A DNA stretch of 64,000 nucleotides from Limanda limanda (lineage: Eukaryota > Chordata > Actinopteri > Pleuronectiformes > Pleuronectidae): the NCBI RefSeq assembly GCF_963576545.1, contig NC_083639.1:18729118-18793117 (forward strand). The letters run 5' to 3'. Numbering within the stretch: position 1 is the first letter of the stretch; each line of letters starts with the position of its first letter. A program made the position numbers and the translations under genes. This document shows, piece by piece, positions 31,120 to 62,468 of this stretch. Below the pieces are notes generated by a model that saw nothing but the letters and a program-made list of their open reading frames with translations, searched no databases and had not been told where the DNA came from.

Positions 31120-31126
31120 CTAATAA
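31120..31126 (+). repeat. Left target-site duplication CTAATAA
   Basis: Seven bases immediately outside the CAACCC terminus, identical to 38358-38364. Confidence 0.8.
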
Positions 31127-31176
31127 CAACCCAGTCTCATCAGGAAACGTTCAGTGGGAACGTTGGTCCACTTGGA

Positions 31177-31230
31177 CAAACGTTTCCATCTCACAATCTG
31201 GCCTATCAGATTGTGAGATGGAAACGTTTG
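31177..31230 (+). repeat. Subterminal perfect hairpin, left end
   Basis: Two 24-base arms (31177-31200 and 31207-31230) are perfect reverse complements around a 6-base loop (GCCTAT). The hairpin sits 50 bp inside the terminus. Subterminal inverted repeats of this kind are often transposase-binding regions. Confidence 0.85.
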
Positions 31231-31792
31231 GTCCGCCCATTGTTTTGCATTGACGTGTTTTCACGTCACGTGACTCCCGAGTTCCCGTCTCCGGAAAGGA
31301 AAACATGGCGGACAGTCCTTGTTTTTTCAGATAAAAACATGATTTTGTAACTTAGTCTGGGCATAAAAATACATTCTGACACCATTTCTAGCGAGAAATG
31401 TGGTCTTTGCTTCCACAGTCTTCAGCCAGTTTGTGCTTATGATATATATTTTAATAGTTATCACGAATGTTTTTATCGTTGCTATGGTGGTTGCTATGAC
31501 GCTGCCATGCACACAACGTCGTAGCGTGCTGTTTAAATCACCGTACCTGCGTGGTGTCGTTCAGTGATTGTGTATGTTATTCATGTTAAATAATATTAAT
31601 ATTTGAGGCTAGATTACACCTCTAATGCGAAGGATCTTGCGAGTCTGTTCAGAGGCGGACATGAGTGTGACACCGGACCGAGATCGCGAACGGACCGGAA
31701 CTGACGTGTGGCTGGCGTACAAAAAGGTTTTGTAAACATTCTGTCCATTTAACTTAGCGCTGTCATAAACACGGACCATTTGGAAGACAACG

Positions 31793-31813
31793 ATGTCATC
31801 TTCCTTCTGTCAG
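31793..31813 (+). CDS. Candidate short first coding exon of the arm gene (left)
   Basis: An ATG at 31793 gives MSSSFCQ and runs into CAG|GTAAGTA, a near-perfect donor, in phase 0. It follows a GC-rich, CpG-rich stretch that could be a promoter. An alternative upstream ATG at 31661 gives a 24-codon frame. The family is unknown. Confidence 0.35.
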
Positions 31814-32234
31814 GTAAGTAGTTTATTGTTTTTAAAGATCTATTACGATCTAGGTTCACAGTCCGAGTGCTGAGACAGCGGATGCGGAGTCCGTCGATAA
31901 ACACAATGGATGCATTTCTTCAGCTAATATGCCATGGTTAGCCACATGCTTCAGCCCACGGTAGCATGTGATTACCTGGGAGGTGAAAACATGGTTTTTG
32001 AAACCAGTTCAAGACGCTTAGCTCATCATTAAGGGACGCTACAATATAAATATAAACATGAATTTGATTTATGAATGCTTTAGATTAATAAGGAGTGTAT
32101 TTCTCGACCATTACTCCTCAATAACAGATCAATTTGGTTTAATGTATAGTATGCAATATGACAATAATGTTTTCATGTTATGGAGTTGCGATTCATTTTA
32201 TAAAACAATTGCTATGTTCTGTTTTTTAATCAAG

Positions 32235-32351
32235 GAGGATCCAAGTGAAGCTACAGGAGTTTCATTAACGTCAATAACTTGGACCGAACAGTTTGTTTTG
32301 CTTGATGAAGAGGAGGAAGGGCAGCCTGGAGAGAAAGAGAAGCCGGGTTGA
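32235..32351 (+). CDS. Candidate exon encoding an acidic segment (left arm)
   Basis: The acceptor TGTTTTTTAATCAAG is followed by a phase-0 frame (EDPSEATGVSLTSITWTEQ, then LLDEEEEGQPGEKEKPG and TGA). Of the three frames after the acceptor only this one stays open, which supports it. The stop at 32349-32351 would end the protein early unless a donor upstream of it is used; GAG|GTACTT at 32418 lies after the stop. Continuous open frame from 32058 includes intron-like sequence. Confidence 0.35.
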   Translation, partial: EDPSEATGVSLTSITWTEQFVLLDEEEEGQPGEKEKPG

Positions 32352-33354
32352 GCCCACTTCCATCATCCACGTACCACAAGGAAGATGAGGGGGAGAAATG
32401 ATCCTACCATTAAAGAGGTACTTTTAAGTTACATACCAGAAACACCATTTTATATAATGTGCCAAATATAAATTTGTATTAAATCCCCAAAGTACGCTGG
32501 CTGAAATACAAGTTAATATCACACTGAAAGAGTTTTGATCAATCATGCTTCCCTGCTGTGGTTGTTCAACTGGGAAAACAACTTTTTCCAAAGGAAGGCA
32601 AGTAAATTTAAGGAATGCATCTGCAAAGTTTTCCTCTGTTATGTATAATGATGACCCCCATTAAACATTATGTTATTAATAATATTTACACCTTTTCATT
32701 TATACTGTTTATTTCTGTCTACATGTTTGAATTTGCCTTCATTAGTTTCAGAAAAGAGCGATGATGTATCGGTCAGTGGGCGGCAGCACGAGACTCCGCA
32801 AACTAGTCTCTAAGCAAAGTAGACGAAGGCATTGAGGTTGCGGCCTGCCATCATTATTATTTTGCTTAAGGGACTGAATACGTTTCATGCAGAAATATTA
32901 GCATTTCCCTTATATCTACCAAAACTGCTTGTTTCACAGACTGCAGTTTTGTTTTGATCCGATGTGGTGTGCAAATACTAACCGTATATCTGCAATGGGT
33001 TGTTGTGCATTAACATTTGTAACTCTATTTTTGTTTTGACAGACTGTGCAAAGAATGTTGAGAACATCACTAACCAGTGCAGTGTCCGTCTACATATTTC
33101 TACATATTTTCTCTCATATAAATGTCACTGTAACCTCTTGACAACTGAAACCATAACATGAGGTCAGTGTGGCCTTGACCTTTTGACTTTAAGACAAGTA
33201 CACAGTTAGACAACCCGAAAACATGCAGTAATGCCTCCGGCGACTCGCTATTGCAGAGGCATTAAAATGTTAGTGTAGTAGACTGGATTTTATTGGTGTT
33301 ACATTGGACATCTTGTATTGGTATACAAAAAATATATTTGGTTTCACATTTTAG

Positions 33355-33977
33355 ATGGCATAAGCAGAGACATCAACTCAGGAAATGGATTTCTGCAGAA
33401 AAGAAAGCCTTGTATGTGTGTATATATACATACAAACGCACTTTTAAAACGTTTTGTTTTTTATCATATATTCTCAGGTAGTACTGACGCATTTATGGAG
33501 ATGGGACATGAGGGCCTTGTCTGCGTGCTCAAGAGAAGATTCCACAGAGTTCAAGCTGAGCAGGCTGCAGCAGGTTTGGAGGAATCCTCCTCTGAAGAGG
33601 AAACATGGCGAAGTACTTCTCCACTGATGAAGAAATGTGAGCGCTGTGATTAAATAAAATCTGCTGCCATGCTACTGTTGCTACTGGTGGGCCCTGCTAT
33701 TAGCTTGGTGTTTGGTAGCTGTTAGCTTTAGCATATTTATTTTTTAGGGACCTGTCTGACGTTTATGTTTTTAAAAAAAAATCAGAGGGAACCATCTTCA
33801 TAATTTAACACTATGTTTTCTTTGTGTTCTTCAGTTATTCTCAAGAGAAGCTGCCTCAGCTCCACGGTCCCTCCTGCAGCTTCCACTCCTGATGCTAACC
33901 CCCTGTTTACATCACACCATCCGGGCAGACCTGGAGTCACAGAACTTTGTCCAGAGCTGCCGTCTGAGAATTGTTGA
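33355..33977 (+). CDS. Spliced 3' part of an unknown gene in the left arm (three exons)
   Basis: Three exons, 33355-33411, 33478-33636 and 33835-33977, have GT-AG borders (acceptors CACATTTTAG, TATTCTCAG and TGTTCTTCAG; donors CCTT|GTATGT and AAAT|GTGAGC). All junctions are phase 1 and the joined frame has no stop until TGA 33975-33977. It encodes about 119 residues: a short basic start, STDAFMEMGHEGLVCVLKRR, a glutamate/serine-rich stretch (EESSSEEE), and a proline-rich tail ending CPELPSENC. AATAAA follows at 34021. I recognise no domain. The start of the protein is not fixed; 33043-33081 is a phase-compatible upstream exon but its donor is weak. The gene points toward the centre of the palindrome. 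Confidence 0.5.
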
Positions 33978-34020
33978 TCATATAATTTCCAGCAGATGCC
34001 TTAATGTAATGTTTGTGCAC

Positions 34021-34026
34021 AATAAA
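34021..34026 (+). terminator. AATAAA polyadenylation signal, left arm
   Basis: It lies 44 bp after the TGA of the candidate last exon and before an AT-rich, non-coding stretch. Confidence 0.5.
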
Positions 34027-34563
34027 TGACATTGATCATAACATATTGGTATTTCCTTGCACTTTTACACCATGATATTGGCAGATAAGATGTTGATTAC
34101 ATTAAAGCAGTGAATGCTCTGCTTTAAGCAACATAAACACACAATGATCCAATGGATTTGAAGTAGAATGGGCACGTTACATTCTGTAGAGAGTACCTCA
34201 GTAACGGAAGTCAGAAAATTAATTTTTCTTTATCTGAGGTTCAGTGAGTTATAGTAACAGCAAAGCACACAGGTCTTGTTGTCTAAGTGGCAACCATATC
34301 ATATTGTTTAAGATGTGTAACATCAAGCTTGTGTATCAGTGCTAAATACATCCAGTCATAAGTAAGTTCACCCTCTTGTTAACACTAAAAGTAGGTGACC
34401 CAGATGTTTCACAATGCAATCTGATAAGGTCGTATGAGAAACATTCTTAACATTAAAGAAATGAACACAGAGGATAGCAATAGATGTTTCACTTTAAATC
34501 AGTAGCTGGTAATCGGCAGACTGACTTATTCAAACACATTAATACTACAATGAATGAGGCAGG

Positions 34564-34920
34564 GGTTTGCTATCAGAAATCATTTCTGGGACATTAATTT
34601 AAAAGATCTCCAGTATAAGCAAATGTGTTCTAAAATTGGTTTACATCCAAGTGAGAGGCTGTCCCATCTCAGGGATTTAAGATATATATATTGCTTGTAT
34701 TAGCTGTCCCTCAGTGAAGTACTTGCACTTCTTGAAAAGCTCTATATAAATAAGATGTATTATTGTTTATACATTGCCCTCTAGTATATGTTTTCCTAAG
34801 TGACTGTAGATACAGAAACAACAGTATGGTTCAGGTGACAGTAAGTGGAAGGTGAAGGTCATTTCCATGAGCTCAAGAGAAACCTAATGTGACGATATAC
34901 TTGATTTCTGATAGGAAGCA
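34564..34920. other. Unique centre (spacer) of the palindrome
   Basis: This is 357 bp and AT-rich. The near-perfect pairing stops at 34563/34921, but weaker pairing continues to about 34582/34902 (the block CTATCAGAAATCA is shared). Beyond that the two sides do not match. No gene or known motif was seen. Confidence 0.75.
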
Positions 34921-35457
34921 CCTGCCTCATTCATTGTAGTATTAATGTGTTTGAATAAGTCAGTCTGCCGATTACCAGCTACTGATTTAAAGTGAAACAT
35001 CTATTGCTATCCTCTGTGTTCATTTCTTTAATGTTAAGAATGTTTCTCATACGACCTTATCAGATTGCATTGTGAAACATCTGGGTCACCTACTTTTAGT
35101 GTTAACAAGAGGGTGAACTTACTTATGACTGGATGTATTTAGCACTGATACACAAGCTTGATGTTACACATCTTAAACAATATGATATGGTTGCCACTTA
35201 GACAACAAGACCTGTGTGCTTTGCTGTTACTATAACTCACTGAACCTCAGATAAAGAAAAATTAATTTTCTGACTTCCGTTACTGAGGTACTCTCTACAG
35301 AATGTAACGTGCCCATTCTACTTCAAATCCATTGGATCATTGTGTGTTTATGTTGCTTAAAGCAGAGCATTCACTGCTTTAATGTAATCAACATCTTATC
35401 TGCCAATATCAGGGTGTAAAAGTGCAAGGAAATACCAATATGTTATGATCAATGTCA

Positions 35458-35463
35458 TTTATT
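35458..35463 (-). terminator. AATAAA polyadenylation signal, right arm
   Basis: Mirror copy of 34021-34026 (TTTATT on the plus strand). Confidence 0.5.
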
Positions 35464-35506
35464 GTGCACAAACATTACATTAAGGCATCTGCTGGAAATT
35501 ATATGA

Positions 35507-36129
35507 TCAACAATTCTCAGACGGCAGCTCTGGACAAAGTTCTGTGACTCCAGGTCTGCCCGGATGGTGTGATGTAAACAGGGGGTTAGCATCAGGAGTG
35601 GAAGCTGCAGGAGGGACCGTGGAGCTGAGGCAGCTTCTCTTGAGAATAACTGAAGAACACAAAGAAAACATAGTGTTAAATTATGAAGATGGTTCCCTCT
35701 GATTTTTTTTTAAAAACATAAACGTCAGACAGGTCCCTAAAAAATAAATATGCTAAAGCTAACAGCTACCAAACACCAAGCTAATAGCAGGGCCCACCAG
35801 TAGCAACAGTAGCATGGCAGCAGATTTTATTTAATCACAGCGCTCACATTTCTTCATCAGTGGAGAAGTACTTCGCCATGTTTCCTCTTCAGAGGAGGAT
35901 TCCTCCAAACCTGCTGCAGCCTGCTCAGCTTGAACTCTGTGGAATCTTCTCTTGAGCACGCAGACAAGGCCCTCATGTCCCATCTCCATAAATGCGTCAG
36001 TACTACCTGAGAATATATGATAAAAAACAAAACGTTTTAAAAGTGCGTTTGTATGTATATATACACACATACAAGGCTTTCTTTTCTGCAGAAATCCATT
36101 TCCTGAGTTGATGTCTCTGCTTATGCCAT
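35507..36129 (-). CDS. Spliced 3' part of the same unknown gene in the right arm
   Basis: This is the mirror copy, with exons 36129-36073, 36006-35848 and 35649-35507, the same splice borders and the same stop. It converges on the left-arm copy, so read-through from both would give transcripts complementary over kilobases. Identity of product unknown. Confidence 0.5.
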
Positions 36130-37132
36130 CTAAAATGTGAAACCAAATATATTTTTTGTATACCAATACAAGATGTCCAATGTAACACCAATAAAATCCA
36201 GTCTACTACACTAACATTTTAATGCCTCTGCAATAGCGAGTCGCCGGAGGCATTACTGCATGTTTTCGGGTTGTCTAACTGTGTACTTGTCTTAAAGTCA
36301 AAAGGTCAAGGCCACACTGACCTCATGTTATGGTTTCAGTTGTCAAGAGGTTACAGTGACATTTATATGAGAGAAAATATGTAGAAATATGTAGACGGAC
36401 ACTGCACTGGTTAGTGATGTTCTCAACATTCTTTGCACAGTCTGTCAAAACAAAAATAGAGTTACAAATGTTAATGCACAACAACCCATTGCAGATATAC
36501 GGTTAGTATTTGCACACCACATCGGATCAAAACAAAACTGCAGTCTGTGAAACAAGCAGTTTTGGTAGATATAAGGGAAATGCTAATATTTCTGCATGAA
36601 ACGTATTCAGTCCCTTAAGCAAAATAATAATGATGGCAGGCCGCAACCTCAATGCCTTCGTCTACTTTGCTTAGAGACTAGTTTGCGGAGTCTCGTGCTG
36701 CCGCCCACTGACCGATACATCATCGCTCTTTTCTGAAACTAATGAAGGCAAATTCAAACATGTAGACAGAAATAAACAGTATAAATGAAAAGGTGTAAAT
36801 ATTATTAATAACATAATGTTTAATGGGGGTCATCATTATACATAACAGAGGAAAACTTTGCAGATGCATTCCTTAAATTTACTTGCCTTCCTTTGGAAAA
36901 AGTTGTTTTCCCAGTTGAACAACCACAGCAGGGAAGCATGATTGATCAAAACTCTTTCAGTGTGATATTAACTTGTATTTCAGCCAGCGTACTTTGGGGA
37001 TTTAATACAAATTTATATTTGGCACATTATATAAAATGGTGTTTCTGGTATGTAACTTAAAAGTACCTCTTTAATGGTAGGATCATTTCTCCCCCTCATC
37101 TTCCTTGTGGTACGTGGATGATGGAAGTGGGC

Positions 37133-37249
37133 TCAACCCGGCTTCTCTTTCTCTCCAGGCTGCCCTTCCTCCTCTTCATCAAGCAAAACAAACTGTTCGG
37201 TCCAAGTTATTGACGTTAATGAAACTCCTGTAGCTTCACTTGGATCCTC
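37133..37249 (-). CDS. Candidate exon encoding an acidic segment (right arm)
   Basis: Mirror copy of 32235-32351. Confidence 0.35.
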   Translation of the reverse strand, partial: EDPSEATGVSLTSITWTEQFVLLDEEEEGQPGEKEKPG

Positions 37250-37670
37250 CTTGATTAAAAAACAGAACATAGCAATTGTTTTATAAAATGAATCGCAACT
37301 CCATAACATGAAAACATTATTGTCATATTGCATACTATACATTAAACCAAATTGATCTGTTATTGAGGAGTAATGGTCGAGAAATACACTCCTTATTAAT
37401 CTAAAGCATTCATAAATCAAATTCATGTTTATATTTATATTGTAGCGTCCCTTAATGATGAGCTAAGCGTCTTGAACTGGTTTCAAAAACCATGTTTTCA
37501 CCTCCCAGGTAATCACATGCTACCGTGGGCTGAAGCATGTGGCTAACAATGGCATATTAGCTGAAGAAATGCATCCATTGTGTTTATCGACGGACTCCGC
37601 ATCCGCTGTCTCAGCACTCGGACTGTGAACCTAGATCGTAATAGATCTTTAAAAACAATAAACTACTTAC

Positions 37671-37691
37671 CTGACAGAAGGAAGATGACAT
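37671..37691 (-). CDS. Candidate short first coding exon of the arm gene (right)
   Basis: Mirror copy of 31793-31813 with the same CAG|GTAAGTA donor. Confidence 0.35.
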
Positions 37692-38253
37692 CGTTGTCTT
37701 CCAAATGGTCCGTGTTTATGACAGCGCTAAGTTAAATGGACAGAATGTTTACAAAACCTTTTTGTACGCCAGCCACACGTCAGTTCCGGTCCGTTCGCGA
37801 TCTCGGTCCGGTGTCACACTCATGTCCGCCTCTGAACAGACTCGCAAGATCCTTCGCATTAGAGGTGTAATCTAGCCTCAAATATTAATATTATTTAACA
37901 TGAATAACATACACAATCACTGAACGACACCACGCAGGGACGGTGATTTAAACAGCACGCTACGACGTTGTGTGCATGGCAGCGTCATAGCAACCACCAT
38001 AGCAACGATAAAAACATTCGTGATAACTATTAAAATATATATCATAAGCACAAACTGGCTGAAGACTGTGGAAGCAAAGACCACATTTCTCGCTAGAAGT
38101 GGTGTCAGAATGTATTTTTATGCCCAGACTAAGTTACAAAATCATGTTTTTATCTCAAAAAACAAGGACTGTCCGCCATGTTTTCCTTTCCGGAGACGGG
38201 AACTCGGGAGTCACGTGACGTGAAAACACGTCAATGCAAAACAATGGGCGGAC

Positions 38254-38307
38254 CAAACGTTTCCATCTCACAATCTGATAGGCCAGATTGTGAGATGGAA
38301 ACGTTTG
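38254..38307 (-). repeat. Subterminal perfect hairpin, right end
   Basis: Mirror copy of 31177-31230, the same distance from the right terminus. Confidence 0.85.
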
Positions 38308-38357
38308 TCCAAGTGGACCAACGTTCCCACTGAACGTTTCCTGATGAGACTGGGTTG

Positions 38358-38364
38358 CTAATAA
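38358..38364 (+). repeat. Right target-site duplication CTAATAA
   Basis: Seven bases immediately outside the GGGTTG terminus, identical to 31120-31126. Confidence 0.8.
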
Positions 38365-54738: not shown

Positions 54739-55449
54739 TATGATAACAACAAGACTGCTTGATTTACAATATGGCTACTCACATATTATACTATTAATGG
54801 CAATAACGCCTCCATTTCAGTTGTGATTGCATCTTCCATTATCTCTATCAAACATTTTCTTTTGTATAAATACTTTAAACGTGGACAAACCTTTCCATTA
54901 TGTTAAAATCAATGTTGTAACTGGACCTCTTATTTGACTGAAAAAGTCAAAGTAGTGGTCAGTTTCTTTTTCCGCAAAGATTATCTATTATTTTAAGCAG
55001 TTCCTATCACACTCCTTCTTGTTCAAGTGCACATTTTTCCAGTATGTTTGGTTTTAATTGGTTATTTGATGCTATAAAATCAGGGTGAAACGCTCTGATT
55101 GACAGCTGAGACTGACTCACGATGGGTCAAGCACATGCATCAGCGGGACCTCGCTGCCGCTGCTCCACATCATGATTGCTGCTGACCCCATATGTGTAAG
55201 ATGGCAGCTTCGTATCTTGATTACTTTGGCTCCATTTCTGGATAGCGGGAGGATGTGGAGACACGACATCAATATCTATAAGCATATTATAATTAGTGTC
55301 TATTCTGTGTTAAGTTCAAAGCTACATCTAGGCGTAGATGTAAATTTCGAAACTTCTCTGTACATTTTTGTGTTTATTTCTCAATCTCCTCTTTCATTGG
55401 TTCAGTCCTCATTAAAGGCTGGCTGCGCTGTGCTGAGTGTGCGCACAGA

Positions 55450-61999: not shown

Positions 62000-62468
62000 C
62001 ATAGATATCATATATAAACACTAGATGTCTCGGCCGCGTTGCCGGCCAACAGAGTCGAACGTCACCACATGGCAGCCATCTTGCTGAGGGCTGCTCGCTT
62101 ACCCATAACAATGTGTTGTAGTGGTGCGTACTTTTTTAATAACCATAACTTTCTCAATTTTCAACCAATTTTTAAACTGTTTGGTTTGTTATAAACGTCA
62201 GAGAAGTAGTTATGACACTGCATAAATTATTAAATTGTTTAGAAAAATAAACAATTTAACATAAATTATTAAATTGTTTAGAAAAATAAACAATTTAACA
62301 TAAACAGTTGAAAAATCGGTTGAAAATTGAGCAAGTTATGGTTATTTAAAAAGTACGCACCACTACAACACAATGTTATGGGTGAGCGGGCCGCCCTCAG
62401 CAAGATGGCCGCAATGTGGTGACGTTCGACTCCATTGGCCGAGGCATCTAGCCTTATATATGTCTATG
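62000..62468. mobile_element. 469-bp MITE with perfect 8-bp target duplication
   Basis: The element starts CATAGATATCATATATAA and ends TTATATATGTCTATG. It is flanked by identical CTCACAAC at 61992-61999 and 62469-62476. Long imperfect inverted arms include GTCGAACGTCACCACAT and GCCATCTTGCTGAGGGC, then CCCATAACA and TGTTGTAGTGGTGCGTAC. An 8-bp duplication fits the hAT superfamily. It has no coding capacity. The centre holds a 39-bp unit repeated twice. Confidence 0.85.
62222..62299 (+). repeat. 39-bp tandem duplication inside the MITE
   Basis: Two exact copies of a 39-bp unit that itself contains an inverted pair (AAATTGTTTA / TAAACAATTT). Confidence 0.9.

Follow-up and report, generated by a model that had tools for sequence, protein, structure and literature searches.

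Foldback elements appear to belong mostly to the Mutator superfamily, although exceptions exist, and the source of their transposase is often missing (PMC4079207). THAP binding sites have been described in the arms of Galileo, the P-type foldback of Drosophila (PMC3688188). Within the Kyakuja-Dileera-Zisupton (KDZ) transposons, the Kyakuja branch has 7-bp target-site duplications and CA..TG termini and is described without terminal inverted repeats (TIRs); for Zisupton, duplications of 8 bp are given (PMC12730594).

The analyzed stretch of 64 kb (the window, C4:18729118-18793117 of a 717-Mb genome) contained a palindrome of 7,231 bp at 31127-38357, of which 6,912 bp lay in the arms (Table 1). 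Pairing of position x with 69484-x gave 8 mismatches in 3,456 positions (at 31328, 31385, 31545, 31936, 34072, 34564, 34566 and 34569), in agreement with the first-pass annotation, which had described a near-perfect palindrome with this pairing. The arm length of 3,437 bp proposed there was too short: the pairing itself is real, and the arm continues to 3,456 bp, the lower value stopping before the last three mismatches. Identical arm limits were obtained by independent repeat finding in the window. The termini were CAACCC at the left and GGGTTG at the right. Nearly the whole element thus consists of long inverted arms around a short centre and is mobile, which is the structure of a foldback element. 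No tandem repeat was found within the palindrome, and neither a tRNA nor an Rfam match was found in it or anywhere else in the 64-kb window. Elsewhere in the window, a tandem array was noted at 62221-62304 (39-bp unit, 2.2 copies, 100% match).

Table 1. Coordinates of the palindrome, of its predicted contents and of the KDZ transposase matches (window positions unless a chromosome is given).
Feature	Position	Strand	Basis or context
Left target-site duplication CTAATAA	31120..31126	.	sequence
Left arm, 3,456 bp, 99.77% complementary to right arm	31127..34582	+	pairing, repeat finding
Conserved outer 300 bp of arm; AACGTT at 31146, 31159, 31179, 31223	31127..31426	+	comparison with copy L035
Small palindrome, 54 bp, inside arm end	31177..31230	.	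repeat finding
Predicted first coding exon MSSSFCQ and splice donor	31793..31813	+	joined to the following exon in P0002 of plaice
Predicted second exon EDPSEATGVSLTS..., end uncertain	32235..32351	+	open reading frame; P0002 match
Predicted later exon	33478..33636	+	part of plaice protein P0001 match
Predicted last coding exon	33835..33977	+	part of P0001 match
Unpaired centre, 319 bp, common to many copies	34583..34901	.	pairing; copies compared
Right arm, inverted copy of left arm; same predicted exons on minus strand	34902..38357	-	
Small palindrome of right arm, 54 bp	38254..38307	.	repeat finding
Right target-site duplication CTAATAA	38358..38364	.	sequence
KDZ match 1	C16:18791582-18791923		inside 13,024-bp end pair
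KDZ match 2	C12:5511430-5511771		inside 12,606-bp end pair
KDZ match 3	C2:32022930-32023259		3,414 bp inward of unpaired end

The 25-bp end of the element was searched for in the whole genome with up to 3 mismatches. It was found 122 times (62 forward and 60 reverse), while the reversed control sequence gave no match in the 717 Mb. The 100 end matches listed of these 122 resolved into 46 inverted pairs, with 8 ends left without a partner; 42 of the 46 pairs were below 8 kb in length, and all 46 together had a median of 7,180 bp. Twenty-nine elements including the window copy, to which the 40 scored of 138 end candidates belonged, were read. All 29 carried the CAACCC and GGGTTG ends, one of them with a single changed base (GCGTTG), and all 29 were flanked by perfect target duplications, 7 bp long in 28 cases and 8 bp in one (L011). 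The duplicated 7-mers differed between copies, and no strict target was evident. Because 28 further elements share the ends and have matching duplications, and because 122 end matches stand against none in the control, chance is excluded and the palindrome is real. The family to which it belongs is young and recently spread, with dozens of copies.

These results also bore out the reading of CAACCC...GGGTTG with flanking CTAATAA as element boundaries, and the earlier proposal of a foldback-type transposon moving as a single unit with 7-bp duplications. The search by terminal bases suggested there thus yielded further copies, and the case named as contrary to the proposal, copies with other ends, was not encountered among the 29 elements apart from the one base change.

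Copies were not uniform in length. Of the 46 pairs, 30 contained two matches to an arm-interior 30-mer (window 33541-33570, with up to three mismatches allowed), 13 contained a single match and 3 contained none. In many shorter copies, the centre had been lost together with a portion of one arm. Two long end pairs, C22:16877029-16890965 (13.9 kb) and C8:27562041-27589067 (27.0 kb), both held a match to the palindrome centre and may be copies with insertions or nested copies; owing to the centre match, they were set aside. A rearranged copy was noted at C18:12522708-12523741, with the centre repeated and four additional pieces of 37 bp spaced 95 bp apart. Matches to the arm interior outside the listed end pairs were noted at C12:27649315, C14:8862032, C19:226976 and C19:4725146, and these are perhaps fragments or older relatives.

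In one case, a related site lacking the element was available. Copy L032 was inserted into an old repeat, and a relative of this site at window 55035-55167 aligned without gaps across the insertion point, with 93 of 133 positions identical. This was the sole case among the 29 junctions when compared with the DNA read here. The window segment 55035-55167 itself belongs to an old, dispersed type of repeat and is 70% similar to the site into which L032 was inserted.

Two subfamilies were distinguished. Subfamily B comprised 4 of the 29 elements (L018, L029, L032 and L035), which differed from the window copy by 3-7%; in each of these copies, both arms were longer by about 245 bp, at an identical position. 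Divergence was determined for the 19 of 29 elements with at least 2,500 aligned bases in each arm (15 of subfamily A and 4 of subfamily B), the other 10 being left out. In subfamily A, the arms differed by 0.27% within a copy and by 0.78% between copies, and none of 5,000 permutations gave a value as low; therefore, the arms homogenise within copies, clearly so in this subfamily. The corresponding values for subfamily B were 0.47% and 0.80%, with 222 of 5,000 permutations as low, which is a weak signal. Among the variants of subfamily A, 63 were private to one copy and present in both its arms, and 93 were present in one arm. In the tree, the two arms of a copy were sisters in 14 of 19 copies and not sisters in 5.

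The arm was conserved unevenly. Between the window copy and L035 of subfamily B, 2 differences were found in the outer 300 bp, compared to 37 in 194 at arm positions 501-700. CpG over the first 800 bp of the arm was near or above expectation, and this part may be promoter-like. None of the seven open reading frames of the arm that were tested matched a Pfam family at E up to 1, and no transposase was found encoded in the palindromes. When the arm was spliced by hand, MSSSFCQ was joined to EDPSEATGV..., and these two exons, joined in the same way, form the start of the plaice protein P0002 (92% over 58% of the query). The later predicted exons were matched by a second plaice protein, P0001 (61% over 74%). 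These were the only two protein relatives found, and with both of them from plaice, a fish host is likely. A search for long proteins that begin with the first two exons yielded 4 candidates, none at E ≤ 1. As judged from these matches, the arm carries parts of a predicted spliced gene with relatives in plaice.

A candidate source of the transposase was found outside the palindromes. When all 6 candidates for the KDZ transposase family PF18758 were scored, only three matches were obtained in the whole genome; all three were above the Pfam cut-off and free of stops, and all lay in or beside ends of this family (Table 1). In the two long end pairs, the offsets of the match from the ends were similar, 3,446/9,236 bp in the 13,024-bp pair and 3,106/9,158 bp in the 12,606-bp pair, and the orientation agreed. 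Under uniform placement, the chance of finding all three at family ends was roughly estimated at about 1e-10. The KDZ-bearing elements are defined by end coordinates and the Pfam match, and the duplications of 7-8 bp refer to the 29 palindromic elements. By coordinates, a KDZ transposase thus lies between family ends in two long elements and was not found in the palindromes themselves. As far as they were compared, KDZ-bearing elements and palindromes have the 25-bp ends in common, with 1 mismatch each. No match to the palindrome centre was found in the 13,024- and 12,606-bp pairs among the 40 scored of 43 centre candidates. The arm-interior 30-mer, at up to three mismatches, was found at none of the three KDZ-bearing places; a derivation of the arm as an inverted copy of one side of these elements would thus be conjectural. 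The palindromic copy L026 (C7:23685474) also lacks this 30-mer, so the pattern is not infallible. KDZ is probably the superfamily of the transposase source, which gives a likely answer where the first-pass annotation had left the superfamily unknown. The rare end pairs of 12.6-13.0 kb with their KDZ match are candidates for the autonomous relative that this annotation called for, although the arm-interior 30-mer was not found there.

We consider it likely that the palindrome is a non-autonomous foldback DNA transposon moved in trans, with the rare 12.6-13.0 kb KDZ transposon as the best candidate for the mover. The transposase would be supplied from other loci, most likely these same-ended KDZ elements; it would recognise the CAACCC ends, excise the 7.2-kb unit and insert the unit at a staggered target cut, giving duplications of 7 bp and rarely 8 bp. 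The KDZ protein would act in trans on the palindromes, and the conserved outer 300 bp with the AACGTT cluster is a putative docking site. Arm-templated repair, either gene conversion or hairpin repair during excision, may keep the arms alike, and errors in this repair could explain why one arm is shortened in many copies. On balance, we lean slightly towards the fuller picture of a KDZ-driven foldback family in a vertebrate, in which dozens of 7-kb palindromes are set in motion by a few 13-kb KDZ transposons, and the two 3.4-kb arms of each palindrome rewrite each other as self-correcting mirrors.

Long palindromes are prone to misassembly, and this tendency would favour reading the palindrome as an artefact of assembly, or else as an inverted duplication that arose locally, with no mobile unit. 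Such an origin is highly improbable in view of the dispersed copies with their own duplications, the non-identical arms, the shared centre and the related site without an insert (L032 compared with 55035-55167); at the level of the family, it is refuted. A vertebrate foldback of the Galileo type, moved by a THAP/P-type transposase, was hinted at in the first-pass annotation and shares with Galileo the 7-bp duplications and the long arms. P-type transposases are also present in the genome, one of them with an uninterrupted 853-aa frame. None of the 24 matches to PF21788 and none of the 13 to PF21787, however, lay in the end pairs among the 100 of 122 ends listed, whereas two KDZ matches lay in such pairs and the third near an unpaired end. 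Between the P matches and the listed paired ends, the smallest distance was 196 kb, and no P match was present within 20 kb of any listed unpaired end. Neither an end-like sequence nor AACGTT was found within 2.5 kb upstream of the P gene on C10 or in the second P-like locus L045, and the zebrafish P element Pdre2 has ends CATACCTGTCAAC and 8-bp duplications (PMC10983969). With no P match inside the listed end pairs, the P-superfamily origin was rejected and is regarded as very unlikely.

As for these P-type genes themselves, the gene on C10 (C10:7276826-7282692, L037 and L046) contains the 853-aa frame with a THAP-like first exon upstream, and relatives 83-95% alike and mostly broken occur on C2, C5, C7, C8 and C15. 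The second P-like gene has many exons and exists in several copies, at L045 (C9:12605600-12611900) and on C1, C2, C19 and C23, with three copies about 14-15 kb apart on C23.

Less improbable, though still doubtful, is another transposase as the mover, such as a 7-bp hAT, a Mutator or an undescribed kind, with the KDZ elements sharing it or carrying KDZ as cargo. hAT7 families with 7-bp duplications are known (PMC12730594), Mutator appears to account for most foldbacks (PMC4079207), and the KDZ elements of 12.6-13.0 kb leave room for further genes. On the other hand, KDZ is itself a transposase family that fits the duplications and termini, and the only three KDZ matches of the genome are all in this family. 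A KDZ source is thus preferred, and the elements represent a real, young, giant foldback family with a probable source of this kind.

If the KDZ-driven picture is true, the family is the first case of a foldback lineage linked to KDZ transposases. The genome with its dozens of young copies also contains a probable transposase source of a kind other than Mutator and P, and trans-mobilisation of giant palindromes is thereby directly testable. Long palindromes promote breaks, inversions and gene conversion, and the young 7-kb copies form a natural series for measuring the mutual upkeep of palindrome arms. In the openly accessible literature searched, no link between foldbacks and KDZ/Zisupton was found; in subscription papers or repeat databases, the family may be listed under another name. 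Neither vertebrate foldbacks with long terminal inverted repeats nor teleost palindromic non-autonomous DNA transposons with long inverted repeats were found in the same scope. A 12-mer of the element end returned only papers with titles unrelated to transposons. To our knowledge, no foldback arm is longer than the 3.4-kb arms of this family.

Compared with described systems, the family is like the KDZ transposons in having a KDZ transposase match within elements that bear its ends. The duplications are 7 bp in Kyakuja and 8 bp in Zisupton and Dileera, compared to 7 and rarely 8 bp here, and the CA..TG termini of Kyakuja resemble CAACCC...GGGTTG (PMC12730594). In contrast, the palindromes have inverted arms of 3.4 kb and no transposase found in them, while the fungal Kyakuja is described without TIRs in the same paper.

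Galileo likewise has long inverted arms and 7-bp duplications (PMC3573991) and many non-autonomous copies with varied arm lengths (PMC3573991, PMC3688188). Its longest arm is given as about 1.26 kb (PMC3573991), compared to 3,456 bp here, and its transposase is P-type, of which none was present in the listed end pairs. By analogy with its arms, the AACGTT cluster invites the idea of sites resembling THAP binding sites. Drosophila FB and Tetris also have long inverted repeats with a central loop and are non-autonomous; the arms of Tetris carry 220-bp tandem repeats, and its duplications are 8-10 bp long (PMC4079207), whereas no tandem repeat was found in the window element.

Among fish elements, Pdre2 is likewise a DNA transposon with a long duplication, but differs in its 13-bp TIRs and 8-bp duplication (PMC10983969). 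Dada, with duplications of 6-7 bp, is similar in this respect; two of its members, Dada-U6 and Dada-U1, are without terminal inverted repeats, and small-RNA genes are the targets of Dada, whereas the sites of the palindrome family are varied. Dada was rejected on the varied insertion sites, the perfect terminal repeats and the lack of a tRNA or Rfam match in the window.
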